Shown here: positions 2,562-57,223 of the stretch, piece by piece
Layout: each line of letters opens with the position of its first letter
Position numbering within the stretch: the stretch's first letter is position 1
Source of the DNA: a virus
Virus record (IMG/VR): IMGVR_UViG_3300032236_001129
Coordinates: 36,207-100,206 of that record
Length of the DNA stretch: 64,000 nucleotides
Strand: one strand, 5' to 3'
Translations under genes and position numbers: made by a program
The notes under the pieces: generated by a model
What the model was told of the DNA's origin: nothing
The model's database searches: none
Seen by the model: the letters and a program-made list of their open reading frames with translations, nothing else

Positions 2562-3887
2562 CTAGAGTCCCCGACCACCATTAAACTCATTGTTACGGGA
2601 TAGGTAGCTCTGCCAATCTTCATCTTCGTTCTCTACGTTACGCTCGTGAGTTTCCATGCCTGCTCCGCTAACTTCTTCCATATATCGGGAGAAAGCGCCG
2701 GCACGGCGGGAGATTGGTAGGGGTTGTTGCTTTTTACGAACCTCTTCGTTGCTTACCTTAGGGGTAGCCTTTGTTTGAAGCGATGAAAGAACATAGTTTG
2801 GAGTTACTACGCCTTCTCCATGCTGCTCAATAATAGAATGTAAAGATTCACGGTCTAGCTTTTTACCGGATTTATGATGAGCAAGAACAGCCTTCATGAC
2901 ATTGTCAATAGGCGCATTACCTTTTCCAATAGGCGTATCTGTTCGCTCAGAATGTGGCTTAACATAGTTGCCTCGAGCAATACCTTTTCTACGTCCTTCA
3001 GCAGACTCACCAAGAGTGAGCATACTTCTTACAGGAACGCCGGATTTACCGACAAAGTAGTTTTCTTTATCAGCTTTGCGCTTCTCTTCTTGTTCTTCAC
3101 CAATTTTTGCTAGCTGCTCAGGAGTTTTACCGCTGCTAAGCGTCTGCTTATCCTCTTTAGATAATTCTTCCCAGTTACGTCCAGCCATGCCTTTACGAGC
3201 ACGCTCTAGAGCCGTATTAAGAGCTGTTTCTTTATACTCAGGTGTACGAGTCTGTGCAGGCAATGGTTTTGTTGTTCCAGGTGTGCGACCAGCACCTGCA
3301 TATGGAGTCATTTGTCCAAACCAGGAGCGCTCATCTTCTGGGCTAACGCCATGATGAAAGATCATACCGGCAGACATGACTGCTTTAACATCATTGCTCA
3401 TGCCAGCTTGCTCATGAACAATACGATTTTCAACGTCAGGTGTAATAGGTTCTGGAGACTTTACGTAGATATCTGGGTTATCTTTACGCCAGTTAGCCAA
3501 GTGCTCTTGTTCTTCAGATAAATGTTTAGGGCATAGGGGAAAACCTACTCCACCAATTGTGCTTGAAGAAGGGGTGTGAAAAATATGGGTAGCTTGAGGA
3601 TGACTTTGATCGTGATCTTCACTCTTAAAGTGACAAGCAACACCTTGGCCAACTCTACGACGAGAAGTAACCGCAGTTCTTTTTACAGTTCCTGGTGTAC
3701 CTGAAGCAGGGTTTGGTTGGAATACTTCCATGCTCTTTTGCTTAGGGCGATGCTTAGGTTCTTTAGGGCCTTCAGTAATTTGAAGACTATTACCTTCGTC
3801 ATTGCTCTCATCTTCAGGGTCGTAAACAGAACGAATGTTCTTACCTGCATACGTTCTAGCAAACCCTAAGATATCTTCAACGGACAT
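2562..3887 (-). CDS. Unknown 441-aa protein, probably disordered, virion-associated candidate
   Basis: The first 60 residues are charged and polar. A possible metal-binding segment follows near residues 83-125: ACHFKSEDHDQSHPQATHIF, then LCPKHLSEEQEHLANW (Cys/His-rich). The remainder is Lys/Glu/Pro-rich with segments such as RKGMAGRNWEELSKEDK and GNAPIDNVMKAVLAHHKSG. The C-terminus carries SRYMEEVSG and SYLSRNNEFNGGRGL. Length and composition resemble large accessory proteins of actinobacteriophages, but I do not recognise a family. It starts 3 bp after the 85-residue gene's stop region and belongs to the same minus-strand unit. Confidence 0.65.
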   Translation of the reverse strand: MSVEDILGFARTYAGKNIRSVYDPEDESNDEGNSLQITEGPKEPKHRPKQKSMEVFQPNPASGTPGTVKRTAVTSRRRVGQGVACHFKSEDHDQSHPQATHIFHTPSSSTIGGVGFPLCPKHLSEEQEHLANWRKDNPDIYVKSPEPITPDVENRIVHEQAGMSNDVKAVMSAGMIFHHGVSPEDERSWFGQMTPYAGAGRTPGTTKPLPAQTRTPEYKETALNTALERARKGMAGRNWEELSKEDKQTLSSGKTPEQLAKIGEEQEEKRKADKENYFVGKSGVPVRSMLTLGESAEGRRKGIARGNYVKPHSERTDTPIGKGNAPIDNVMKAVLAHHKSGKKLDRESLHSIIEQHGEGVVTPNYVLSSLQTKATPKVSNEEVRKKQQPLPISRRAGAFSRYMEEVSGAGMETHERNVENEDEDWQSYLSRNNEFNGGRGL

Positions 3888-7797: not shown

Positions 7798-8094
7798 CTA
7801 CTTCTCTAGACGCTTAAGGATTTCCCGTGCTACTACTAGGGTTTCCATGTCTACATCGAAGTCTTCTTTAGCTTTTTTACGATCAAGTTCTCCTTGACGG
7901 TTTGTAGCGTTTAGGATCAAGCCAGAGAGCAGGATAGACTCAAGAGAAACTATTAATGTTAAGAATAGGAATGGGTAAGGCTCCATAAAAAACCAGATGG
8001 TCCACATTACGAGATGAAACCCGATAAAAGCTGGCTTACCAAAGTTCTCAGCTGCCCAATCAGATAGCTTATGAACTAGGTTGTGCAACTTCAT
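7798..8094 (-). CDS. DUF1003-like membrane protein, 98 aa
   Basis: The sequence has FGKPAFIGFHLVMWTIWFFM, then FLFLTLIVSLESILLSGLIL and NATNRQGELDRKKAKEDFDV: two membrane helices followed by N(Q)NRQxExDRxxAxxDFxVD. This is the core signature of the DUF1003 family of small bacterial membrane proteins, here with only the two-helix core and the following amphipathic helix. It overlaps the neighbouring coiled-coil membrane protein by 4 bp (ATGA type). Its role in a phage is unknown; membrane lesion control or superinfection exclusion are possibilities only. Confidence 0.75.
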   Translation of the reverse strand: MKLHNLVHKLSDWAAENFGKPAFIGFHLVMWTIWFFMEPYPFLFLTLIVSLESILLSGLILNATNRQGELDRKKAKEDFDVDMETLVVAREILKRLEK

Positions 8095-8409: not shown

Positions 8410-8430
8410 TGTTAAACTATGATTAATCAT
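8410..8430 (+). promoter_or_regulatory. Putative promoter with 12-bp palindrome for the plus-strand cassette
   Basis: TG-T-TAAACT (8410-8418) fits an extended -10. It is directly followed by the perfect palindrome ATGATTAATCAT (8419-8430), immediately upstream of the AAGAGGAG ribosome site at 8431. The palindrome would lie at the transcription start, a good place for an operator. This is inferred only from position. Confidence 0.4.
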
Positions 8431-8444
8431 AAGAGGAGATTAAA

Positions 8445-10583
8445 ATAAGAAAACTACGTCTACTCGTAGAACTATTTCTTGCATCAATCCTTTACTTTTC
8501 TGTATCACAACTCGCAGCACACGCCGATGATTTAACACCTTCAGATCAGGTGGCAATTTCCCCTGCCTCTGACACATCTACAGCTACAGTATCCTTACCT
8601 GTTGCTCTTGCCTCTGCTATCTCTACAGTAGACGGCGCTACAGTTACTGTAAATGTTGCAATTCAAACAGCTAGTGATTCTTTAACTGCTGTTGTAGACA
8701 CCCAAGAAAAAATGCAGGTGGTGGAGTCTAGTACCGTAGCCGTTGCAGCTATTGATTCTGCCACGGTTGCTATCAATGATGCTCACGTAGCTATTCAAGC
8801 TGCTGAGTCAGCAACTGTTACAGCTGCGTTGGATCTGCAAGCTGTAGATTCCCAGACAGTTGTTGTTGCCATAGCAACTACTAACTTAGATAGTTCTACT
8901 GTAGTGCTTAACGTGGCCACTGCAGCTGTCGATTCCCAGACCCTTGTAGTCTCCCAAGATGCAGTTGCTTCTCAGAATGCCCAAGCTGCCGCCGATTCTT
9001 CTACCGTTACTGTGACCACAGGTGGGGTATCAGCTACGGTTTATAATGGAACAGGTAGATCACCGGCACTTCCTACAGATCAAACAACCCCTATTCTTAC
9101 AACTATAGTTCCACAGATCATTAACAATTGGGGTGGAGGTTCGGTACAAGGTGGCCCAGCTGATCGTGTGATCGTTAAATATGAAGGCACGATTACTGCC
9201 CCTGCTGATGCAGTGGCTGTTAAGTACGCTGTTTACTCTGATGATGGGGCTAAGCTGTATGTTGATGGTCAGCTAGCAATCAATAACTGGAGAGACCAAG
9301 GACCTACTTGGAGCCCATACAGTCCTGTGTATGATGTGACTACTAATAAGTCTCAAAATTTTGTGCTTTGGTACTATGAAAATGGTGGAGGTGCAGTTTG
9401 TACTCTTGGCTGGGCAATCTTTAGAGCTGATGGTACAGGATACTTTACAAGCCCTACTGCACCTAACTTTGGTACCACAACTACAACCAAAGATCAAGCA
9501 TTAGTAGCTGCAGCTCAAGCTGCGTTGGATACTCTTAATAATGATAGTGCTGTTTTAGTTACTCTTCAAGATGCAAAGACAGCTGCAGAAAATGTTGTAG
9601 CTGCGGATACTCAAACCAAAGCGGATGCTATCTCTCTATTAACACAGTTAACCGATACTACTACAGCATCTGTTGCCACAGCTGTAGATCTATCTAATCA
9701 AGCTGCTGCAAAAGCTAATGATGCTAAAGCAGCATTGGATACAGCAGTTACCACAGTTTCCAGCGTTGTTGCTCAATATATTGACGCTCAGCTTCAGTTG
9801 CAAGCTCAGAGAGATGCTGAAGCTGCCGCTGCCGCAGCTGCTGCAAGAGCTGCTGCAGTTGCTCCGGCTCCAGAACCTCAACCTGCTCCTCAACCTGAAC
9901 CAGATCCGCAACCTCAGCCCGATCCACAACCTCAACCGGATCCACAACCACAGCCAGATCCTCAGCCGCAACCAGATCCACAACCTGCGCCGCAACCAGA
10001 CCCAGGACCCGCACCTGCTCCTCAGCCAGAGCCTGCACCCGCTCCTGCGCCTGCTCCAGCGCCCGAACCAACTCCTGCACCTTCACCTGAACCACCTGTC
10101 GTTCCTGGTCTAGTTCCTAATAATCCAGACTCACTACCAGATAGTGTACCAAAGGAAGCGCCTAAAGAAGTTCTCGTGCCTCACGTACAAGTTGATAAAG
10201 CTGGTGTAGAAAATGGTGGCATTGAATTCTTTGGTACTAAAACACAGCCACAAGTAGTTGGAGAAGATGGAAAGCTTACCCCGCCTCCACCTCCTCCAGG
10301 TTCAGGGCTACCAATTCCTCCGGATGCGATAACCTTGAGCGATACATTTATCGGACAACCAGGCGGCACAACATTTAACGCACCTGACGTTGCCGTTCCC
10401 GTTATAGAAACTCCTGTTACTGGGGCTTTAGCGGCGGTACCTGGGGTACAGGCTCTCAATCATGCATTCGTTGCGATGGCTAACATCGGTAACGATATGT
10501 CCCCTATCACCCGTAAAAAAGCAAAGAAAATCTTGGTATTGACAACCGTCATTGCCGCCGTAAGAAGGAGATTTGGTAACTAA
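8445..10583 (+). CDS. Secreted PA14-domain, proline-rich surface protein; apparent ATA start
   Basis: The frame is open from a TAA at 8430-8432. AAGAGGAG (8431-8438) is followed after 6 nt by ATA at 8445, and no ATG, GTG or TTG lies before a textbook signal peptide (RKLRLLVELFLASILYFSVS, then QLAAHA before DD). GTG at 8550 would remove the signal and lacks a ribosome site. With ATA the product is 712 aa: signal peptide 1-27, Ser/Thr/Val heptad-like repeats 30-195, a PA14 domain about 198-335 (YNGTGRSP, then KYAVYSDDGAKLYVDGQLAI and DQGPTWSPY), coiled-coil Ala-rich segment 345-470, PQPDPQP repeats about 474-552, and a C-terminal KKAKKILVLTTVIAAVRRRF that may anchor in the membrane. PA14 domains bind carbohydrates. 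Surface display on the infected cell, or virion release with host wall, are both possible. Confidence 0.75.
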   Translation: MRKLRLLVELFLASILYFSVSQLAAHADDLTPSDQVAISPASDTSTATVSLPVALASAISTVDGATVTVNVAIQTASDSLTAVVDTQEKMQVVESSTVAVAAIDSATVAINDAHVAIQAAESATVTAALDLQAVDSQTVVVAIATTNLDSSTVVLNVATAAVDSQTLVVSQDAVASQNAQAAADSSTVTVTTGGVSATVYNGTGRSPALPTDQTTPILTTIVPQIINNWGGGSVQGGPADRVIVKYEGTITAPADAVAVKYAVYSDDGAKLYVDGQLAINNWRDQGPTWSPYSPVYDVTTNKSQNFVLWYYENGGGAVCTLGWAIFRADGTGYFTSPTAPNFGTTTTTKDQALVAAAQAALDTLNNDSAVLVTLQDAKTAAENVVAADTQTKADAISLLTQLTDTTTASVATAVDLSNQAAAKANDAKAALDTAVTTVSSVVAQYIDAQLQLQAQRDAEAAAAAAAARAAAVAPAPEPQPAPQPEPDPQPQPDPQPQPDPQPQPDPQPQPDPQPAPQPDPGPAPAPQPEPAPAPAPAPAPEPTPAPSPEPPVVPGLVPNNPDSLPDSVPKEAPKEVLVPHVQVDKAGVENGGIEFFGTKTQPQVVGEDGKLTPPPPPPGSGLPIPPDAITLSDTFIGQPGGTTFNAPDVAVPVIETPVTGALAAVPGVQALNHAFVAMANIGNDMSPITRKKAKKILVLTTVIAAVRRRFGN
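9868..10080 (+). repeat. Tandem PQPDPQP-coding repeat
   Basis: Imperfect 12-18 bp units encode alternating PQPDPQPQ and then APAPAPEP. The DNA repeats (cagccagatcctcagccg and variants) are degenerate at third positions, so selection is on the protein. The region is prone to length change by slippage. It forms a stiff stalk between the coiled-coil part and the C-terminal region of the surface protein. Confidence 0.8.
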
Positions 10584-10768
10584 TGAAGCAATTCTTTAAA
10601 GATATATCTTCAGATTTCTTCAGTGAGATCTGGACATTCGTAGGGCTATTCTCAGCATGGCTAGTACTAACTGGTTCTGCTAAGACCGTCATCGGTAAGG
10701 TAACCCTAGCCTCTTTTGTAGTGTGGATTCTTACCCTCCGTCTTCGTAACCCAAAGGATAAAGAATGA
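10583..10768 (+). CDS. Small two-helix membrane protein, 61 aa
   Basis: ATG at 10583 overlaps the stop of the surface-protein gene (TAATG). The product starts MKQFFKDISSDFFSEIWTFV, with hydrophobic GLFSAWLVLTGSAKTVIG and VTLASFVVWILTLRLRNPKD. Two membrane spans with a charged C-terminus fit a small class II-type holin or antiholin. Its position two genes upstream of the endolysin, in a short operon, supports a lysis role. No family is recognised with certainty. Confidence 0.65.
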   Translation: MKQFFKDISSDFFSEIWTFVGLFSAWLVLTGSAKTVIGKVTLASFVVWILTLRLRNPKDKE

Positions 10769-11139
10769 AAACAACAGGAAACATTCTTCTACGTATCGTT
10801 GCTGTGTTTGCAGCTAGCGGTCTAGGAGTTATCGGTGCTGGTTCTATCGCAGGAATCTCAGTACTAAAAGCCGTAACAGTAGCTGGTCTAACAGCGGTTG
10901 CTGCGGTAGTAGAAAAACTTGCTCGTGGCTTTATGAACGACGGTAAGCTTGACCTAGATGAAATTAACGCAGCATTTGCAGCAGTTGATGTTAACTCTAA
11001 GACAGCTGCTGACCTTCAAGTTGAAGCCAAGCAAAACGGTCAGGATATCTTAATCAAGGCTGATGGTGGAACAACTGTAGCGACTCCAGTTGCTGCAGCA
11101 GCACCAGTAGTAGACCAAAGCCACCCAGATTATAACTAA
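10765..11139 (+). CDS. Membrane protein, holin candidate, 124 aa
   Basis: The product starts MKTTGNILLRIVAVFAASGL, with GVIGAGSIAGISVLKAVTVA and GLTAVAAVVEKLARGFMNDG: two Gly/Ala-rich membrane helices followed by KLDLDEINAAFAAVD, an EF-hand-like acidic helix, and a flexible Ala/Val tail. The order NxLLRxxAVFAASGLGVIGAGS, then LARxFxxDGKLDxDEINAAF, is a pattern I associate with endolysin-adjacent membrane proteins of actinobacteriophages. It overlaps the previous gene by 4 bp and ends 10 bp before the endolysin. Holin function is inference. Confidence 0.7.
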   Translation: MKTTGNILLRIVAVFAASGLGVIGAGSIAGISVLKAVTVAGLTAVAAVVEKLARGFMNDGKLDLDEINAAFAAVDVNSKTAADLQVEAKQNGQDILIKADGGTTVATPVAAAAPVVDQSHPDYN

Positions 11140-11149
11140 GGAGTAAAAC

Positions 11150-11896
11150 ATGGCAGCAGAAAAAGGAACAGCAGCTCGTATGGTTGAAGTAGCTCTTGCA
11201 GAAGAAGGCTACGTAGAAGGTCCAAAGGACAATGAAACTAAGTACGGCGCATTTACAAAGGCTAACTTCTTGCCTTGGTGTGGCTCATTCGTTATGTGGT
11301 GTGCTAACCAAGCTGGCGTAAAGGTACCTAATACAGTATCTACAATGGCAGGTGCAGCAGCTTTCAAGAAGCTCGGTACTTGGACAGACGCAGCGGTAGC
11401 TCAGCCAGAACCAGGAGACATTGTTTACTTTGACTTCATGGCTGGCGGTGCTCCAATCGAGCACGTAGGCATTGTTGTTCGTGACAATGGCGATGGCACA
11501 ATCACCACTATCGAAGGAAATACTTCTGGAGATAAGAAGAAGTCTGGTTCACAGGCTAACGGTGGAGAAGCTGTTGTAAAGCTTCGTGCTTATAAGAAGA
11601 ACAAGAAGGCTCTCCCAATCTTCATTGAAGGTTTTGGTCGCCCCAACTATGTAGGTAATGACGTGCATGTGGATCCAGTCCCAGCAGTTAAGCCAGCATT
11701 TCCAGGACAAATCAAGCCAGGAGACAAAGGCGAGAACGTTAAGACAATCCAGCATGCACTTACTCTTGTAGAAGATGGTGACTATGGCCCTGCAACTAAG
11801 GCAGCAGTTATCAAGTTCCAGGATAACCATGCTAATCTAGATTCAAATGGAATTGTTGGCCCAAAGACTTGGGCAGCACTCATGGATCTACTTTAA
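11150..11896 (+). CDS. Endolysin: CHAP amidase/peptidase plus peptidoglycan-binding domain
   Basis: The ribosome site AAGGAGTAAAAC precedes ATG at 11150. The N-terminal catalytic domain (about 8-160) has the CHAP signature: nucleophile C44 in FLPWCGSFVMWCANQAG and catalytic histidine near residue 105 in GAPIEHVGIVVRDNGDG, followed by TTIEGNTSGD. Residues about 186-248 form a PG_binding_1 domain (KPGDKGENVKTIQHALTL, then DYGPATKAAVIKFQ and GIVGPKTWAALMDLL). It lacks a signal peptide, so it depends on a holin. It is the last gene of the plus-strand cassette and is followed by a strong terminator. It cleaves peptide or amide bonds in host peptidoglycan at the end of infection. Confidence 0.93.
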   Translation: MAAEKGTAARMVEVALAEEGYVEGPKDNETKYGAFTKANFLPWCGSFVMWCANQAGVKVPNTVSTMAGAAAFKKLGTWTDAAVAQPEPGDIVYFDFMAGGAPIEHVGIVVRDNGDGTITTIEGNTSGDKKKSGSQANGGEAVVKLRAYKKNKKALPIFIEGFGRPNYVGNDVHVDPVPAVKPAFPGQIKPGDKGENVKTIQHALTLVEDGDYGPATKAAVIKFQDNHANLDSNGIVGPKTWAALMDLL

Positions 11897-11910
11897 GAAT
11901 ATAAATAAGA

Positions 11911-11936
11911 AAGCCCCCAGTGATGGGGGCTTTTTT
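11911..11936 (+). terminator. Strong, probably bidirectional intrinsic terminator
   Basis: AAGCCCCC (11911-11918) pairs with GGGGGCTT (11925-11932) around AGTGAT, followed by TTTTTT on the plus strand. On the minus strand the stem is followed by a T-rich tract (CTTTCTTATTTA). It separates the convergent endolysin and phosphoesterase genes, whose stops lie 41 bp apart. Confidence 0.92.
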
Positions 11937-14960: not shown

Positions 14961-15826
14961 TCGGATTCCTTTCTAAAAGGCGCACAACGTTTGCATCCAT
15001 TTTCTGAATCTTGGTTGCACATAGGAGGACGGTCGTTAGCTACAGCCCAGGCAACGTCCAAAGCCTTGTCAAAGATCTCAGCTGTATATTCTGGGTTGTA
15101 CTTAACCACGAACTCTTTATATTCCTGGTTAGCTTTAAGCTCATAGATAAATACGATCTCTTCTGGTGCTGCCTCAAGCAGACCTTCTTCTACCATTAGG
15201 TGGCAGAGGTGAAGGTAAACCTGTCCTTGTAGCTGGTGAGAACGTAGAGGTGTGCGGATGTTCTTCCACACTACATCGATATCATTGTTGTACTGCGCCA
15301 TCATGGCAGGCATTTCCATACGGATAGTGCCGGTACCAATAGACTTAATCTCAATCAGGCAGTCATCACCTAGACCTTTGATCCAACCGTCAGCATGACC
15401 ACGCATCATATGCTTGTCACTGCGTAGAGGAACTTCGAGATACTCATCTTCAATATCCACATTGTTAGATGCTAGATCCCAACCTTTACCTGTAGGGCCA
15501 TGCCACATACCATAAAGCACACCCATCTCTCTAAACCAGTTCTGCCACTTAGCGTGGATAGTATGGCCTTCTGCAAAGATAGATGCTAGACGAAGCGTAG
15601 GCTTGTCACGAGTCTCTTGATAGTTTCCCTTGATAGCGTGGTACTGAGCAAGTGCACACCACTCAGGCTTAATAATATCTGAAGGATGAATATAACTCTG
15701 GTCTCGGTCATCAAAGGGCTTAGATAGAACATGGCGTTCTAACGCACCCATAAGGCGTGTATCACGCTTGTTCGCATTAAGAAATGCTTTTAAATCTTTA
15801 CTAGGAACCGTCACCGGCTTTCCCAT
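14957..15826 (-). CDS. Cas4/RecB-like Fe-S exonuclease, 289 aa
   Basis: AAGGAGGCAAAA precedes ATG at 15826, so this start is preferred over 15853. The PD-(D/E)XK core is visible as HMMRGHADGWIKG (motif with D) and DCLIEIKSIGTG (E-x-K), followed by SHQLQGQVYLHLC (the conserved Q of RecB-type nucleases). Four cysteines at C57, C270, C278 and C281 match the Fe-S cluster layout of Cas4 and AddB nucleases. These enzymes resect DNA ends. In phages they act with RecA-type recombinases, here encoded 0.7 kb away. Nothing nearby suggests a CRISPR role. Confidence 0.88.
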   Translation of the reverse strand: MGKPVTVPSKDLKAFLNANKRDTRLMGALERHVLSKPFDDRDQSYIHPSDIIKPEWCALAQYHAIKGNYQETRDKPTLRLASIFAEGHTIHAKWQNWFREMGVLYGMWHGPTGKGWDLASNNVDIEDEYLEVPLRSDKHMMRGHADGWIKGLGDDCLIEIKSIGTGTIRMEMPAMMAQYNNDIDVVWKNIRTPLRSHQLQGQVYLHLCHLMVEEGLLEAAPEEIVFIYELKANQEYKEFVVKYNPEYTAEIFDKALDVAWAVANDRPPMCNQDSENGCKRCAPFRKESE

Positions 15827-16142
15827 TTTTGCCTCCTTGTTCAATCCACTCATCTAAAGTTAGCCCCTGCTTCTTAAATTTACGTTCGGCTGCATTACGT
15901 TCTCTGTGGGATAAACCGCCAAAGATTCCATGTAGCTCGTTGTTGTTGATGGCTTCCTTAAGACATTCTTTACGTACAGGACACGGTGGTCTCCCATCCT
16001 TGCCCCAACAGATTGCCTTAGCCTTGTCAGCTATGGGCTTGTATAAAGCTTTGTCTCGGGGTGGGAAGAACATCTCTGTATCTTCTCCCTGACACTTAGC
16101 ATCATATCGCCAAGTCCACGCTGGGTCGTCGTCGTAACGCAC
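15801..16142 (-). CDS. whiB: WhiB-family regulator with atypical cysteine spacing, 113 aa
   Basis: The four cysteines are C17, C45, C54 and C60, in KAICWGKDGRPPCPVRKECL, so the canonical C-x2-C-x5-C is stretched to C-x8-C-x5-C. The beta-turn motif normally G(V/I)WGG reads GIFGG at 72-76, followed by the basic SHRERNAAERKFKKQG. WhiB proteins carry a 4Fe-4S cluster and regulate transcription through the principal sigma factor, and they are restricted to actinobacteria and their phages. The C-terminus overlaps the Cas4-like gene start. The loop insertion and W-to-F change set it apart from the second WhiB at 25904. Confidence 0.9.
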   Translation of the reverse strand: MRYDDDPAWTWRYDAKCQGEDTEMFFPPRDKALYKPIADKAKAICWGKDGRPPCPVRKECLKEAINNNELHGIFGGLSHRERNAAERKFKKQGLTLDEWIEQGGKNGKAGDGS

Positions 16143-50237: not shown

Positions 50238-51641
50238 TTAGTTAAGTGGGTAACGTATGATTACAATACCTGAACCACCAGTGTACCCTGCGGTTCCTCC
50301 ATTTTCACCGCCACCTCCGCCACCACCAGTATTGGCAGTTCCAGCAGATCCAGCCTGTCTTGAAGCAGATCCAGTACGGTTTGCTCCGTTACCCCCGCCA
50401 CCCATTCCACCAGGTCCAGATTGATAGTTATAGTCTTCGTCTCCAGCTCCACCACCACCAGCGTAATAGTTGTTCACACCGGTACTAGTTGGAATAGCAA
50501 AAGTAGGGATGTATGCGCCTATTCCACCAGCACCACCTGGTTTACCAACAGAAGAATCTCCTGCAACTCCAGCGCCACCAGCTCCTCCTCCACCACCTGA
50601 AACGTAGAGAACTGTTCCCCCACCTCCAGCATAACCTTGTCCATAAGTTCCAGCACCACCTAATGAGTTTCCAGCAGATTCGCGGAACCCACCGCCACCA
50701 CCAGAACCACCAACAAGACCACTACCATCTGCACCACCAGCGCCAACATAACTTCCACCGCCACCGCCACCTAAAGTTACAATTGGCCCAAACATAGATG
50801 GAGTACCGTTTGCTCCAGGTTGCCCACCACCTGAGGAACTACTTCCAGCACCACCACTTCCAATTATTACTGGAACAGTTGTTCCAGCAACTAGAGTTAG
50901 TTTACTTTCAAGACCGGCACCACCACCAGTAGCATCAACTGTACAGCGTAAACCACCAGCCCCGCCTCCAGCGTTAATTCTGGAACCGCCTCCACCACCT
51001 GCTATAACAAGGTAATCAAGATTAGAAATTTGTTGGGTTGTTGTAAGAGTGCTTGAAGAGGTAAAAGTATGATAGGCATATCCTCCGGAAACAGTAATTG
51101 TTCCCCCTGTTGCTTTAACCCCATTAGACACACCATACAATGTAAACGTAGATCCAGAAAGAAAGTTATATGGATTTTGTGCAGAAATAATAACTAAAGA
51201 AGTAATAGGTGTGTTATCAGACCATAATCCTGCACCTATTTCAAGACGTGTATCATTACCATTTTGTGGGCTTACCCCGTACGAAGAAAAATTTTTATAC
51301 TTTGTGCTTGATGAGTAATCAGAAATAGTTACTTCTGCTGTTGAAAAAGTATTTGTAGGCCCACCATTACCCAAAGAGTTATCAAATAAATTCACATAGC
51401 TATTAGTATAGCTTTGAGTAATATTTCCAGAGGCGTAGTATCCACGAAGGATTTTAGTAGACGCATTAGAAGAAGAATTATTTGGATAAAGGCGTACGTC
51501 ATAACCATACTGAGTGTTATCTGTTCTTACAGAACCAACAAGTTTTAATTCTGTATAGTGTTGTGGTATATTTGCAAAAGTTACAGTAGCAACCGTAGAG
51601 CTAACTGTTATAGTTTGAATAGGTATTAATGTATTAGCCAT
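50238..51641 (-). CDS. Two-domain adhesin with glycine-rich C-terminus, 467 aa (paralogue 1)
   Basis: Residues 1-175 are a jelly-roll-like domain: TVSSTVATVTFANIPQHYTE, then LKLVGSVRTDNTQYGYDVRL, ending FLSGSTFTLYGVSNGVKA. A linker GYAYHTFTSSSTLTTTQ leads to the glycine-rich part starting DYLVIAGGGGGSRINAGGGA and ending GGSGIVIIRYPLN. The poly-Gly tracts (GGGGGG, AGGGGT) with periodic hydrophobic and Ser/Thr positions resemble adhesins such as phage S16 gp38, whose glycine-rich motifs fold as polyglycine-II helices. Receptor binding is likely. It starts 9 bp from the end of the next upstream paralogue. Confidence 0.8.
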   Translation of the reverse strand: MANTLIPIQTITVSSTVATVTFANIPQHYTELKLVGSVRTDNTQYGYDVRLYPNNSSSNASTKILRGYYASGNITQSYTNSYVNLFDNSLGNGGPTNTFSTAEVTISDYSSSTKYKNFSSYGVSPQNGNDTRLEIGAGLWSDNTPITSLVIISAQNPYNFLSGSTFTLYGVSNGVKATGGTITVSGGYAYHTFTSSSTLTTTQQISNLDYLVIAGGGGGSRINAGGGAGGLRCTVDATGGGAGLESKLTLVAGTTVPVIIGSGGAGSSSSGGGQPGANGTPSMFGPIVTLGGGGGGSYVGAGGADGSGLVGGSGGGGGFRESAGNSLGGAGTYGQGYAGGGGTVLYVSGGGGGAGGAGVAGDSSVGKPGGAGGIGAYIPTFAIPTSTGVNNYYAGGGGAGDEDYNYQSGPGGMGGGGNGANRTGSASRQAGSAGTANTGGGGGGGENGGTAGYTGGSGIVIIRYPLN

Positions 51642-53077
51642 TAGACTGCATACCTCACAATTACTAGTCCAGATCCACCTTGTCCACCTTGTGCTGGATA
51701 TCCTGCGTAACCGCCGCCTCCACCGCCAGAGCCTGTGTTAACAGTTCCTGAGTTACCTCCAGAAACAGTTTTAGTACCGGCACCTCCACCACCAGAACCG
51801 CCTGAACCTTGTGTGCCATAACCTGTAGAGCCACCACCACCACCTGCGTAGTAGCCAGAAACTCCAGTACCAGTTATAGTTGATAAAGCAGATATTTGAA
51901 CTCCGTTACCGCCAGCACCTCCAACAGAGTTAGGTGAAGTTGCTGCAGCACTACCAGGGCTACCTGCTGAGCCAGCACCGCCACCACCACCACCTGCACC
52001 CCAATATAGAGATGCAACAGGTGTTACACCACCGCCAGCATATCCTTGTCCTGAAGTTGGGGAACCACCAGTTCCTGCGGCGTTAACACCATTACCGGCT
52101 GCACCGCCACCACCAGAACCTCCGCTACCTCCAGTTGCCCCACCACCTCCGTTAAGCTGTGAAGCTCCATAGCCTCCGCCAACAGATACGATTGATCCAA
52201 AAGAAGAATTTCCACCACTAGTTCCATTGTAACCTGGGCCAGGTCCTGGAACAGAAACGCTAACACCACCAGCACCAATTAATACTGGGTAAGAAGTTCC
52301 TGCAGTAAGAGATAGTGCAGACTCAACAGAGCCACCACCACCAGTTGCTGTAACTGTTGAGCGAAGACCACCAGCGCCACCTCCGCCCATACCATCGTAT
52401 GGTCCAGAAGCCCCGCCTCCGCCACCTGCAATAACTAGATAATCACAAGAAATTGCTTGACGAGCAATAAACTTTCCTGAAGTCTTAAATACATGGTACC
52501 AATATGTTCCGTTATTGGTTACAAAGTCACCACCCTCAGCCTTTGTAGTTTCTGCTGCCTTAATTCCATAAGCGGTTAATGAAGAACCTGAAAGAAAACT
52601 AGCACCAGGAACAGTAAGAGTAATGCTTGTTATTGGAGACGTATTGAACCATTGGCCTACTGAAAGCTGTACCGCACTATTTGGTGCAGAACTTCTAGAT
52701 ATTACAGTTTTATTAGTAGTAGCGTTTGAGTAGTTCATGAAATTAAGTATGTCTGTAGTAACAATTGATGTGGTGTTGTCACCTAAAAATATAGAAGAGG
52801 TGCTATATGCTCTAGAAGAACCGCCCGTACTAGATCCAATACCATACACACGTGTCCACGAATAATTACTTCCAGTATCCCCATTTACTGTAAAATAAGA
52901 GTTAACAGCAGTTGAGTTATTTCCTGAATTTAGTACTACAACAAGATCTGTATAAGTTGTGGGAATGTTAGATAAAGTTATAGAGCTTGCATTACTTGTA
53001 AGGGTAGTAACAGCAATAGGGGTATAAGTATTTGATTCCCCTTGAGGCCCACCAGAAGGTGTTGTTGTTATAGCCAT
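51641..53077 (-). CDS. Two-domain glycine-rich adhesin, 478 aa (paralogue 2)
   Basis: The N-terminal domain reads TTLTSNASSITLSNIPTTYT, then DLVVVLNSGNNSTAVNSYFT and VNGDTGSNYSWTRVYGIGSS, ending FLSGSSLTAYGIKAAETT. The linker GTYWYHVFKTSGKFIARQAI precedes DYLVIAGGGGGASGPYDGMG. The end is GGSGLVIVRYAV. Its glycine part has several motifs AGGGG followed by hydrophobic residues (GQGYAGGGVTPVASLYWGAG). Domain order and boundary sequences are the same as in the other three, so they arose by duplication and divergence. Fold and binding function are inferred. Confidence 0.8.
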   Translation of the reverse strand: MAITTTPSGGPQGESNTYTPIAVTTLTSNASSITLSNIPTTYTDLVVVLNSGNNSTAVNSYFTVNGDTGSNYSWTRVYGIGSSTGGSSRAYSTSSIFLGDNTTSIVTTDILNFMNYSNATTNKTVISRSSAPNSAVQLSVGQWFNTSPITSITLTVPGASFLSGSSLTAYGIKAAETTKAEGGDFVTNNGTYWYHVFKTSGKFIARQAISCDYLVIAGGGGGASGPYDGMGGGGAGGLRSTVTATGGGGSVESALSLTAGTSYPVLIGAGGVSVSVPGPGPGYNGTSGGNSSFGSIVSVGGGYGASQLNGGGGATGGSGGSGGGGAAGNGVNAAGTGGSPTSGQGYAGGGVTPVASLYWGAGGGGGGAGSAGSPGSAAATSPNSVGGAGGNGVQISALSTITGTGVSGYYAGGGGGSTGYGTQGSGGSGGGGAGTKTVSGGNSGTVNTGSGGGGGGYAGYPAQGGQGGSGLVIVRYAV

Positions 53078-53665
53078 TTACGCAGTCCTAATCCCATAAA
53101 GAGCAAAATGAGTGTAAGCAGAAAATGTACCATTTTCCGGATACAATGTAATACTATTAATTTTATCTGTGTTATTTCTCCAATTACAATTAAGAATTTT
53201 TAAATAAGAAGAGGAGTTAACATTTCTGTCTCCACCAGAAAAAGAGCGAACAGTCTTATTTTTTGTAGTAGAGTTTGCATCAGCAATTTCTATAATTGAT
53301 GCGCTTGTATAAGATGCTGTGTTTGCACCACCAGTACCCCACAACCCCCAAGTTGAGCTTCCACCACTAGAACCAAATGCTACACCAGCTCCATCACCGT
53401 AGAGCTGTCCCCATGAGTAATTAGAAGCAGAATCACCATTAAAACGAAGGTAAAAACTATCGTTATTAAAAGAGTGTAGTGTGGTTGCACGAATTTGAAG
53501 ATTTGAATAGGTATCTGGAATACCTGTAAAAGTCACTGAGCTTTGGGAACTAGTAAGGCTGATTGTTGCTAATGCAAACATTCCACCCTGGATTGTAGTT
53601 TGATCCCAAACTTTATTGGTTTTGGAGCCGTATACCCCAGCACCATTAAATCTTTTAATAGACAC
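53078..53665 (-). CDS. Single-domain relative of the adhesins, 195 aa
   Basis: The product starts MSIKRFNGAGVYGSKTNKVW, then MFALATISLTSSQSSVTFTG, IPDTYSNLQIRATTLHSFNN and FYLRFNGDSASNYSWGQLYG, ending NGTFSAYTHFALYGIRTA. It consists of only the jelly-roll-like domain of the neighbouring glycine-rich proteins (SVTFTGIPxTYSxLQIR, RFNGDSxxNYSWxxLYGxG, xxFxLYGI). A tail attachment or alternative binding role is possible. Confidence 0.75.
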   Translation of the reverse strand: MSIKRFNGAGVYGSKTNKVWDQTTIQGGMFALATISLTSSQSSVTFTGIPDTYSNLQIRATTLHSFNNDSFYLRFNGDSASNYSWGQLYGDGAGVAFGSSGGSSTWGLWGTGGANTASYTSASIIEIADANSTTKNKTVRSFSGGDRNVNSSSYLKILNCNWRNNTDKINSITLYPENGTFSAYTHFALYGIRTA

Positions 53666-53687
53666 GAATGACTCCCCTTTGGGAAAA

Positions 53688-53924
53688 TTAGAGAACTAGA
53701 ACTGAGGCTTCGTCAGCTGTGAGAGGCTCACCAGCGACTAACTTAGCTTTTGCAGAAACCTTAAGCGCTGCAATACGTGCTTCTTCTGCTTCACGTACTG
53801 CCTGTGCTTCAGCAGCAGCTGCGGCATCCTGATCACGCTGTGCAATTTCTTGTGCTGTTAGGGGAACAATGCGCTGTTCTCCTGTTGTGCAGTCAACGAT
53901 AATCTTTGTAGGTGTATCGGACAT
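53688..53924 (-). CDS. Tail-fibre-associated small protein, 78 aa
   Basis: The product starts MSDTPTKIIVDCTTGEQRIV, then PLTAQEIAQRDQDAAAAAEA, followed by a helix QAVREAEEARIAALKVSAKA and KLVAGEPLTADEASVLVL. D(C/V)xTGExxxxPLTxxExAQxxxxxxxAxxxAxxxxAxxxAxxxxxxKL is a widespread small protein next to phage fibre genes, often suggested to assist fibre attachment or folding. It overlaps the next gene by one base. Function is inferred from context. Confidence 0.7.
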   Translation of the reverse strand: MSDTPTKIIVDCTTGEQRIVPLTAQEIAQRDQDAAAAAEAQAVREAEEARIAALKVSAKAKLVAGEPLTADEASVLVL

Positions 53925-54295
53925 TATTCAGTTACTTCCTTCCATGACTTAGAGGTTTCATCCCATGTGTAGCGCTTTCCTTCTACAGTGGGCATAGGAG
54001 TTGGTGCATCCCATGTGTAGGTATCTTTATTAAGAGTCCATGATGGGAAAGGCTTTGGAGCAATAAATGCGTCTAGAGCCGCATCGTACTTAAACCCAAT
54101 ACCCGCATAGTTACCACGAAATGGGTTACCACCTAAACGGTGTTCTCCAGCAAATGTGTTATACGAGGTCTTCTTCCAAGTACCACCCAAACCGAGTTCA
54201 TCGGCTAGGAATGCTTGACCGTCTTCTACCTCATCAGCTACGACAAGTACACGAGTGACAATGTTGTCACTATCAATTTCGGCCCAATGTGCCAT
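53924..54295 (-). CDS. Fibre-associated protein, MAHWAEI family, 123 aa
   Basis: The product starts MAHWAEIDSDNIVTRVLVVA, then DEVEDGQAFLADELGLGGTW and KKTSYNTFAGEHRLGGNPFR, GNYAGIGFKYDAALDAFIAP and KPFPSWTLNKDTYTWDAPTP. (A/F)AxxDxxNxVxxVxVVxNxxxxxGxxFLxxxLGxxGxWxxTSYNTxxGxHxxGGxPxRxNYAxxGxxYD is a very common small phage protein found beside fibres, including cyanophages. Likely a tail or fibre accessory. A gap of 52 bp upstream has an A/T-rich stretch with the ribosome site only. Confidence 0.85.
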   Translation of the reverse strand: MAHWAEIDSDNIVTRVLVVADEVEDGQAFLADELGLGGTWKKTSYNTFAGEHRLGGNPFRGNYAGIGFKYDAALDAFIAPKPFPSWTLNKDTYTWDAPTPMPTVEGKRYTWDETSKSWKEVTE

Positions 54296-54347
54296 ATGTT
54301 TTTCTCCTTGCTTGATTAGATAATAATAACATACCTAGTGGTATGGC

Positions 54348-55781
54348 TTATGCCTTATAACGAATAATAACTACTCCAGAGCCGCCATTGGCGCCCTTAG
54401 TAACTGGTGGGCTAACTCCATAAGACCCGCCGCCTCCACCACCTGTAGAAGCGGTACCAGCAATACCAGCACCGTTACCTCCACCATAACCAGCACCACC
54501 ACCGCCGTAGCCACCTTGTGAAGAAGCAACGTTAGAGGCACCGCCTCCGCCACCTGCAAAGTAGTAAGTTCCGCTTACATTTTGGCCTAAGCCAGTAGCA
54601 GCTCCCCATACAGTCCAAGTAGCAAGTCCGACGCCACCATCTCCACCCTTAGTATCTGTAGTAACACGACTTTGTCCAACTCCGCCTGCCCCACCACCAC
54701 CAGAGCCGTTACAGTTTGAAACTTGTGGTCCAATTGAGCCAGAAGCATTTCCGTAACCAGTTAAAGTTCCGTAAGAAGTCTGTGTTGCAGCAGCACCGCC
54801 AACTGTTCCGCCGTAACCTCCTGACATACAGCATCCGCCACCAGAACCACCTGTGTATCCAACATAGCCAAAACCGTTGTTGTTAGAAACACCTACGTCA
54901 AATCCAGCACCACCACCTCCACCAAGTGCTGTTGCGGTATTAAAGACTGAGTTACTTCCGCTGTTACCTGCTGAACCGTTTTGAAAGTTAGTTCCTGCTC
55001 CTCCAGCACCTACAGTTACTGTATATGAAGTTGTAGCACTTAACGCTGGAATAGTTCCTGCAAGAACACCTCCAGCACCGCCACCACCAGGCATAGGACC
55101 AGCATATGCAGATCCTCCTGCGCCACCACCAGCGACTACAAGAACATCTACGTTAGTAAGGTTAGAAGTAGGTACAAAAGAACCTGAAGAGATGAAAGAG
55201 TGATAAGTGTATGTGCCATCAAAAGCAATATTTCCACCAGATGCTCTAACAGAGTTTCCATAGGTCTTTACAAGGTTTTTAATTCCATAAACAGTAAAGG
55301 ATGAGTTTTGAAGAATAGTGTTTCCTGTATTAGATAAAAATGTAATAGAGGTAATAGGCGCAGTAGTAGTTGAAAGTCCTGATACCAAAGCAACATATCC
55401 TGCTCCGTTATTAGTAACTACAGAATCACCGTAAGCACTCTTTTGACCATATCCAGAATAGTTAGGTATATAAATCTCACCGCCACCAAAGCTATTAGCA
55501 ACAGATGCTGTATCTGTGCACCAGATAAGCTCTTGAATTGTAGCGCTTACGTAACCGGTAGTACTAGATCCGTTTCCGTACATACCTTTTTGAGAGTATC
55601 CAGTAGTAACTCCGTTATATTGAACCTGAAGAGTATCAGCACCAGCTGCTCGTCCAGTACGTGCGGTTACTTTTACAATTAAATCTGTGTATCCTTGAGG
55701 GATATTAGAGATAGTAACTGATGAGGTTCCACCAGAAGGCACCGTATAGGTTGCCAATTTTGTCATTGTCTCATTAGCCAT
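54348..55781 (-). CDS. Two-domain glycine-rich adhesin, 477 aa (paralogue 3)
   Basis: The N-terminal domain reads YTVPSGGTSSVTISNIPQGY, then TDLIVKVTARTGRAAGADTL and VQYNGVTTGYSQKGMYGNGS, ending SFTVYGIKNLVKT. The linker DGTYTYHSFISSGSFVPTSN leads to VDVLVVAGGGAGGSAYAGPM. It has an unusual double cysteine (GSGGGCCMSGGYGGT) and another cysteine (VSNCNGSGGGG) in the glycine-rich part, and ends GGSGVVIIRYKA. Disulphide or metal bridging at the tip is conceivable. Otherwise the organisation equals the other adhesins. Confidence 0.8.
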   Translation of the reverse strand: MANETMTKLATYTVPSGGTSSVTISNIPQGYTDLIVKVTARTGRAAGADTLQVQYNGVTTGYSQKGMYGNGSSTTGYVSATIQELIWCTDTASVANSFGGGEIYIPNYSGYGQKSAYGDSVVTNNGAGYVALVSGLSTTTAPITSITFLSNTGNTILQNSSFTVYGIKNLVKTYGNSVRASGGNIAFDGTYTYHSFISSGSFVPTSNLTNVDVLVVAGGGAGGSAYAGPMPGGGGAGGVLAGTIPALSATTSYTVTVGAGGAGTNFQNGSAGNSGSNSVFNTATALGGGGGAGFDVGVSNNNGFGYVGYTGGSGGGCCMSGGYGGTVGGAAATQTSYGTLTGYGNASGSIGPQVSNCNGSGGGGAGGVGQSRVTTDTKGGDGGVGLATWTVWGAATGLGQNVSGTYYFAGGGGGASNVASSQGGYGGGGAGYGGGNGAGIAGTASTGGGGGGSYGVSPPVTKGANGGSGVVIIRYKA

Positions 55782-57223
55782 TAGCGTGCGTACCTCACAA
55801 TCACAAGTCCAGATCCGCCCATCATTCCTCGGTTACCAGTATTACCACCATTAGTAGAGTATAGACCACCATCTACACCACCTCCACCACCACCGCCAGT
55901 GTTCATAGTTCCTGCATAAGGCGCAGATGAAACTCCTCCAGTAAGTACAGTTCCTCCACGTCCTCCGCCACCAAGGCCGCCAGCAGCAGTTGTAGTATCA
56001 CGAGAACCACCACCGCCACCTGCATAATAATAATGTCCACTAGAAAGTTGTCCAGTACCTGTAGCAGCTCCAATAACATCTAGTGCTGCAATAGTTGTAT
56101 AGGTTAGCCCTACACCACCAACACCACCAGCTGATTCAGTTGCAGAGCCACCAGCACCACCAGCGCCACCACCACCTGAAGAAGAGTAAGGTGACCCAGT
56201 ACCAGTTCTGGCACTGTTACCGCCAGCGTTTCCGTATCCTGTTGCTCCACCAGACGTTCCTTGGTTTGCTGCGCCTCCAACGTTTCCAGTGTTGTATCCA
56301 GCACCGCCACCAGAACCTCCGGAACTACCTGTCCCATTGTGTGACCCGTAACCTCCGCCATTAGCAGTGATTGTGTCAAATACAGAGTTACTTCCATTAA
56401 TACCAGAACTACCATCAGAATAACCACCAGGACCACCAGCACCTACAGTTACTGTGTACGTTGTAAATGCAGAAAGTGAGCGTCCGCTTTGCCAGCAAAG
56501 ACCACCAGCTCCACCACCACCACCAGCTGCGGAAGCACCTCCACCGCCACCTCCGATTACAAGTACATCCGCAGTAATTGCTCTGTTAGTTGTAAGAGTT
56601 CCGGTACCGTTAAATACGTGATAAACATAGCTAGCGTCATATGAAACAAATGTTCCCCCAGATGCCGCAGTATTTTTTGCGTTAACTGAACCAATACCAT
56701 AAAGAGAAAATGTAGTTCCTACACCAAAGTTAATAGACCCACTTGTTGTGGTCACTGTAACAGAAGTAATTGGGGCAGTAGAGGAGCCACCTGTACCTCT
56801 CCATAATCCAGCACAAAGGTTTGCACCTGGAAGGTTAGTAGAGTAGCTGTCATTAGTATTTGAACGAGCTAACACAGTTTTATACAAAGCACTGCTGCTA
56901 TAACTCATGATGTTTACTACAGCGTGATTTGCACCAAAAGTTGTTCCCCAAGAAGCGTCTGTGTATCCAATTGCAAGGTAAGAAAAATTACTACCACGTT
57001 CACCAATTGGAGTAGAAGTACTGCTAGTAGCAAGGTTTGTCCAAGAATAATTAGTTCCTGTATCACCATTAAAACGAAGAGCTGGAGTCCAGTTTGCTGT
57101 TGCAACAGCGCCATGCATTACTATTTGCAAATCAGTATATGACTGATCAATATTGCTAAATGTAACGCTTGTAGTTGTTGCGTTAGTTACAGTAAGTGTT
57201 TGTAGGGGTACAAGTGTGGCCAT
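55781..57223 (-). CDS. Two-domain glycine-rich adhesin, 480 aa (paralogue 4)
   Basis: The N-terminal domain reads TLTVTNATTTSVTFSNIDQS, then YTDLQIVMHGAVATANWTPA and LRFNGDTGTNYSWTNLATSS, ending TTFSLYGIGSVNAKN. The linker ASYVYHVFNGTGTLTTNRAI precedes DVLVIGGGGGGASAAGGGGG. The end is GGSGLVIVRYAR. It is the longest of the four and the first in transcription order after the single-domain relative at 57223. Stop and start are shared with both neighbours (TAATGG), so the paralogues are made together. Confidence 0.8.
   Translation of the reverse strand: MATLVPLQTLTVTNATTTSVTFSNIDQSYTDLQIVMHGAVATANWTPALRFNGDTGTNYSWTNLATSSTSTPIGERGSNFSYLAIGYTDASWGTTFGANHAVVNIMSYSSSALYKTVLARSNTNDSYSTNLPGANLCAGLWRGTGGSSTAPITSVTVTTTSGSINFGVGTTFSLYGIGSVNAKNTAASGGTFVSYDASYVYHVFNGTGTLTTNRAITADVLVIGGGGGGASAAGGGGGAGGLCWQSGRSLSAFTTYTVTVGAGGPGGYSDGSSGINGSNSVFDTITANGGGYGSHNGTGSSGGSGGGAGYNTGNVGGAANQGTSGGATGYGNAGGNSARTGTGSPYSSSGGGGAGGAGGSATESAGGVGGVGLTYTTIAALDVIGAATGTGQLSSGHYYYAGGGGGSRDTTTAAGGLGGGGRGGTVLTGGVSSAPYAGTMNTGGGGGGGVDGGLYSTNGGNTGNRGMMGGSGLVIVRYAR

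Follow-up and report, generated by a model that had tools for sequence, protein, structure and literature searches.

We tentatively propose that the gene at 8445-10583 on the plus strand of a viral DNA and a small gene directly behind it encode a previously undescribed two-protein display system (a conserved tail and its 61-aa partner), found in freshwater actinobacterial phages and a few bacterial relatives, in which lectin heads are swapped under selection and expression is held down by AUA, AUU, AUC or UUG start codons. The function that we favour, and to which we give an even chance, is that this two-gene module displays a calcium-dependent lectin on the surface of the infected cell, most likely against competing phages. 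Sequence and structural models point to a signal peptide, a lectin fold, a conserved tail, a constant partner and a non-AUG start; we infer docking of the pair at the membrane, a glycan target and a role in exclusion. Export and display, as predicted from sequence, are well supported by inference, and the exclusion role is a guess.

In the proposed mechanism, the product of the first gene would be exported by Sec, and long helices with a Pro-rich stalk would hold its PA14 domain, predicted to be an adhesin-type lectin dependent on calcium, at a distance from the cell. The conserved C-terminal tail would be kept at the membrane, most likely docked to the 61-aa two-helix protein encoded by the second gene, which would be made from a start overlapping the stop of the first. 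A weak start codon (ATA here) may keep the output of the first gene low or under IF3 control. The lectin would most likely bind surface glycans of the host or of sister cells, and adsorption of competing phages would be hindered late in infection.

The window, that is, the whole stretch of DNA analysed here (64,000 nucleotides), belongs to a virus record of 100,206 bases and contains the following features around the pair:

8434-8438, plus strand: Shine-Dalgarno AGGAG, 6 nt from the ATA, read from the sequence
8445-10583, plus strand: display protein gene, ATA start, 712 aa, without an in-frame ATG, GTG or TTG upstream of the signal peptide core
8445-8525, plus strand: predicted Sec signal peptide (sequence, hydropathy), cleavage probably after AHA (residue 27); comparable N-terminus in relatives with a complete 5' end
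8595-8996, plus strand: long helices, residues 51-184, first stalk (AlphaFold2 pLDDT mostly 92-98)
8997-9488, plus strand: PA14 lectin domain, residues 185-348, with SDDG (D266-D267), from Pfam, Foldseek and conservation in relatives
9495-9854, plus strand: long Ala-rich helix, residues 351-470 (AlphaFold2)
9855-10106, plus strand: Pro-rich flexible stalk with tandem repeats, disordered in the AlphaFold2 model
10107-10580, plus strand: conserved C-terminal tail module, residues 555-712, shared at 58-96% identity by three bacterial genomes and over 120 viral contigs
10583-10768, plus strand: 61-aa partner, two predicted TM helices (WLVLTGSAK core), behind the tail in 185/188 loci
10765-11139, plus strand: 124-aa membrane protein, holin candidate; matches phrog_26427, annotated there as nuclease
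11150-11896, plus strand: endolysin, CHAP and PG_binding_1 (Pfam and PHROG domain matches)
11910-11933, no strand assigned: terminator-like hairpin at the operon end

The 712-aa gene is real. A single open frame spans 8433-10583, and the 712 residues are counted from 8445, where the codon is ATA and not ATG, GTG or TTG. A default gene caller starts instead at GTG 8550, which loses the signal peptide; AUA, AUU and AUC starts lead standard gene callers to miss or shorten the display protein. Upstream of the gene, the stretch at 8412-8431 (TTAAACTATGATTAATCATA) resembles a promoter, and GTTAAACTAT is common to L001, L005 and L017. A small palindrome lies between the promoter-like stretch and the Shine-Dalgarno.

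The signal peptide, PA14 domain and PQPDPQP stalk recognised in the sequence-only reading all hold up. The N-terminus is signal-peptide-like (IRKLRLLVELFLASILYFSVSQLAAHA, then DD), with a hydropathy peak of 1.8, and has no Cys at the cleavage site (SVSQLAAHADD) that would make a lipobox. Pfam finds PA14 with an E value of 2.7e-7 and 30.9 bits, against a curated cut-off of 24. PA14 domains are known also from enzymes and sensors. The top Foldseek matches are PA14 lectins (6qe7, 5j6y, 6x7x and 6m8m, E 1e-6 to 1e-10) and include RsgI3, MpPA14, an RTX adhesin and flocculins; the nearest are PA14 domains of adhesins and of polysaccharide sensing. SDDG stands at residues 265-268, with D266-D267-G268 at least 90% conserved among 20 aligned relatives; in PA14 lectins this is the position of the calcium- and sugar-binding DcisD pair (PMC8092209). 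TRF places the PQPDPQP tandem repeats of the stalk at 9869-9986.

AlphaFold2 gives the whole protein a mean pLDDT of 72.5, with region 471-652 (the Pro-rich and part of the conserved sequence) disordered and two C-terminal helices at 668-683 and 687-709. On this model, the two long helices would pack as a hairpin with PA14 at its tip. The heptad-like repeats claimed for the Ser/Thr/Val region do not show a significant 3.5-residue period (matched by 141/500 shuffles); AlphaFold2 places long confident helices there (51-184 and 351-470). Of the supposed Ala-rich coiled coil, an Ala-rich helix is confirmed, modelled at 351-470.

The tail ends in the motif ANIGNDMSPxTRKKAKK, followed by 11-15 hydrophobic residues and RRR; the end of the protein in the window reads KKAKK-ILVLTTVIAAV-RRR. 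The basic-hydrophobic-basic C-terminus described earlier is thus present, and membrane anchoring by it is plausible from the sequence, but a hydrophobic core of 11 residues is short for a transmembrane helix, and the 61-aa protein is therefore probably needed for anchoring. LPXTG is missing before the hydrophobic stretch, where every aligned row has NIGNDMSPxTRKKAKK. Foldseek with the tail alone, whose model reaches a pLDDT of 63, returned 0 matches, and searches of Pfam, PHROG, PDB and INPHARED found no relative of the conserved tail.

The last ~155 residues form the tail module, which recurs at 58-96% identity in over 120 viral contigs from fresh water (71% mean column identity when aligned); in IMG/VR, the whole protein finds 52 relatives and the tail profile 124 stretches. 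In INPHARED, tblastn with the whole display protein, the tail and the 61-aa protein gave 0 matches. Weak phmmer matches to heliorhodopsin and Pro-rich proteins were discarded as composition.

The ectodomain varies far more than the tail. Among 45 full-length relatives, the commonest residue accounts for 0.82-0.84 of rows in the tail vs 0.30-0.45 in the ectodomain; PA14 is present in 30 of the 45, and FN3, SUEL-lectin or GLEYA in others. Between syntenic phages the tail keeps ~83-90% identity, with PA14 down to 42% and the helices to ~25%. Since dS is saturated in several comparisons, we rely on contrasts in dN. In the comparison with the syntenic contig L005, the tail has a dN of 0.033 and the partner 0.036, vs 0.215 for PA14 and 0.60-0.69 for the helices; against L017 the values are 0.048, 0.015, 0.54 and ~1.0, and neighbouring genes in the two comparisons show 0.02-0.3. 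The contrast between tail and PA14 is not universal, because against L001 the dN of PA14 (0.057) does not exceed that of the tail (0.087). A variable ectodomain on a constant tail would be what superinfection blocking predicts, which is a guess.

The first base of the partner gene is also the final base of the display gene's stop codon (overlap TAATG). The partner follows the tail in 185 of the 188 tail loci with room downstream, a count in which some contigs recur; the remaining three represent a single bacterial locus in three records, where a short tail-end copy lies directly 5' of the partner. The length of the tail and the type of partner vary together (39:3 vs 6:29, p 4e-12), which could reflect contact or linked exchange, as adjacent genes could simply recombine together. 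In the bacterial contig L054, a 60-aa frame (3427-3609) holding the tail end only (ANIGNDLSPTTRKKAKK) stands immediately upstream of a longer partner copy, and is either a remnant or an independent short gene. Bacterial partners (L054:3609-3977 and L119:1214-1492) carry a charged C-terminal extension, for a total of 93-123 aa, that phage copies lack.

Weak starts recur across the family. Heuristic calls on unique N-termini give TTG 22, ATA 11, GTG 6, ATT 5, ATG 3, ATC 1 and CTG 1, an approximate split because some calls are doubtful (L055, L066, L104, L110, L112, L045, L047 and L050). ATG thus starts 3 of ~50 display genes, vs 75 of 78 partner genes, all 78 of which have a canonical start. The 124-aa protein (s124) and the endolysin are unclean start controls, since their matches often begin within longer proteins. 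We prefer to this heuristic a strict criterion, namely that no in-frame ATG, GTG or TTG is available: 15 of 52 unique 5' ends have none ahead of the signal-peptide core, and discounting L047, with a TTG further in, leaves 14, which by position are 9 ATA (window included), 4 ATT and 1 ATC. Sequencing error behind the ATA is ruled out by these 14 ends. IF3 represses such non-AUG codons in infC and Streptomyces sigR (PMC5472188). By analogy, the rarity of ATG and the non-AUG starts in relatives suggest that the display protein is probably throttled or IF3-controlled through its start codon. In L006, L010, L026, L034 and L048 the display gene is preceded by the leader ATTCCGAGGGGAATAC-TTG; base-pairing of its Shine-Dalgarno within a short hairpin (ATTCC/GGAAT) would be a possible extra translational control.

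The tail occurs in 3 of 296 genomes of one bacterial order, and the partner in the same three; a class-wide bacterial genome sample held no further copies. The surroundings, where examined, are non-phage genes: chorismate-binding, PAP2 and TrpD-like genes neighbour the first copy, UbiA is near the second and an epimerase near the third, the other scanned neighbours of these two giving no informative Pfam match. Because bacteria carry copies as well, phage competition cannot be the module's sole use. Their tail branches are long (0.46-1.12 vs a median of 0.043) in a poorly resolved tree, whose branching does not separate phage-first from bacterium-first origin. An ORF at 15801-16142, read from its translation as WhiB-like, suggests an actinobacterial host, whiB being a usual actinophage marker (PMC6802176); together with the three related genomes it makes such a host probable.

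Our order of preference is interference with other phages, then adhesion, lysis and a part of the virion. Surface display on the host, as the sequence-only reading had it, would fit the predicted signal peptide, the lectin-type ectodomain and the conserved tail, and a variable lectin head, a constant exported tail and low expression fit a surface protein under changing outside pressure. A displayed lectin might instead make infected cells adhere to neighbouring cells, particles or algae, which would bring progeny to new hosts or protect cells from grazers. The closest folds are indeed adhesin lectins, among them MpPA14, from a bacterial adhesin that binds diatoms, and yeast flocculins (PMC8092209, PMC8621652), and copies exist in bacteria outside phages, but the weak start codons of phage copies speak against high expression, and we consider such an adhesin or aggregation factor rather unlikely.

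Somewhat less likely still is a role in lysis, in which the exported protein would join its 61-aa membrane partner, holin-like in size and topology, and the holin and endolysin in disrupting the actinobacterial envelope. The gene had been placed inside the lysis cassette, and the endolysin is close in the window; in 10 of 22 contigs it lies within 1.5 kb, on the same strand. In the other 12 the pair is still together with no endolysin so near (10 have one within 8 kb, and none was found in the other 2), so adjacency holds in under half of the scorable contigs and there is no constant link to holin and endolysin. What constantly accompanies the gene is the 61-aa protein rather than the lysis genes. 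The pair also sits in bacterial chromosomes away from recognised lysis genes, and known spanins and holins differ from a lectin-like, highly variable ectodomain. A fibre or decoration protein of the virion, its signal peptide serving an unusual assembly route, is very improbable: a conserved base that bears a variable carbohydrate-binding domain is reminiscent of tail fibres, but the relatives' N-termini are signal-peptide-like, the partner is a small membrane protein, copies occur in bacterial chromosomes, and the gene lies far from the contractile-tail genes (sheath, baseplate), which are on the minus strand at 34-47 kb.

The favoured display module has partial parallels. LPXTG/sortase and PEP-CTERM/exosortase systems place a C-terminal motif, a hydrophobic stretch and a basic end on otherwise unrelated exported proteins. 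The display tail resembles these signals in its tripartite end; however, it has neither motif, carries basic residues also before the hydrophobic stretch, and has a partner of 61 aa rather than an enzyme of sortase size. PblA and PblB are tail proteins that are not known to carry a signal peptide, unlike the display protein with its predicted one. With the lysin of Streptococcus mitis phage SM1, they are likewise phage proteins on bacterial surfaces that bind host ligands (PMC2920869). The Ltp lipoproteins (Streptococcus thermophilus phage TP-J34, superinfection exclusion) are, like the module, phage-encoded and composed of few genes, and they are exported and tethered to the host surface, as is predicted for the module, whereas they have a lipid anchor, no lectin domain and a tested function, in place of the predicted protein tail and two-helix partner (PMC3952083). 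MpPA14 and MhPA14 of RTX adhesins (PMC8092209, PMC6650083) and yeast flocculins (PMC8621652) share the PA14 beta-sandwich, SDDG at the DcisD position and a long stalk; they are cellular, exported by type I secretion or linked to the yeast wall, whereas the display protein is phage-borne, predicted to be Sec-exported and has another tail. Conserved IF3-disfavoured starts occur also in infC and Streptomyces sigR, the latter likewise first in a coupled pair (PMC5472188); in the display family the genes are phage genes, the codon varies (TTG, ATA, ATT, ATC) and IF3 control would hold by analogy.

Actinobacteria of fresh water rank among the most numerous bacteria in lakes and are believed to be under heavy phage attack (PMC10202952). 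If the proposal is true, a common phage module would redecorate infected cells with interchangeable lectins and so provide a testable explanation for phage competition and for cell-surface change; it hints at a little-known remodelling, perhaps defence, of infected cells by phages. The tail and partner are a newly proposed candidate pair for anchoring that could serve to mark exported proteins, and a single phage gene family with recurrent AUA, AUU and AUC starts offers a natural series for studies of start-codon control.

Elsewhere in the window, a DUF1003 membrane protein (7798-8094, Pfam 6.6e-13) belongs to the divergent operon adjoining the display gene, and a DUF1003-like gene is near the module in some relatives too. 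A 1167-aa protein at 29911-33414 matches CBM_4_9 weakly, without reaching the curated cut-off, and is a candidate receptor-binding protein. On the minus strand at 50238-57223, a gene set that occurs twice encodes four proteins of 467-480 aa; the three scanned are each Gly-rich with a phrog_2295 match, and are possibly duplicated fibre genes.
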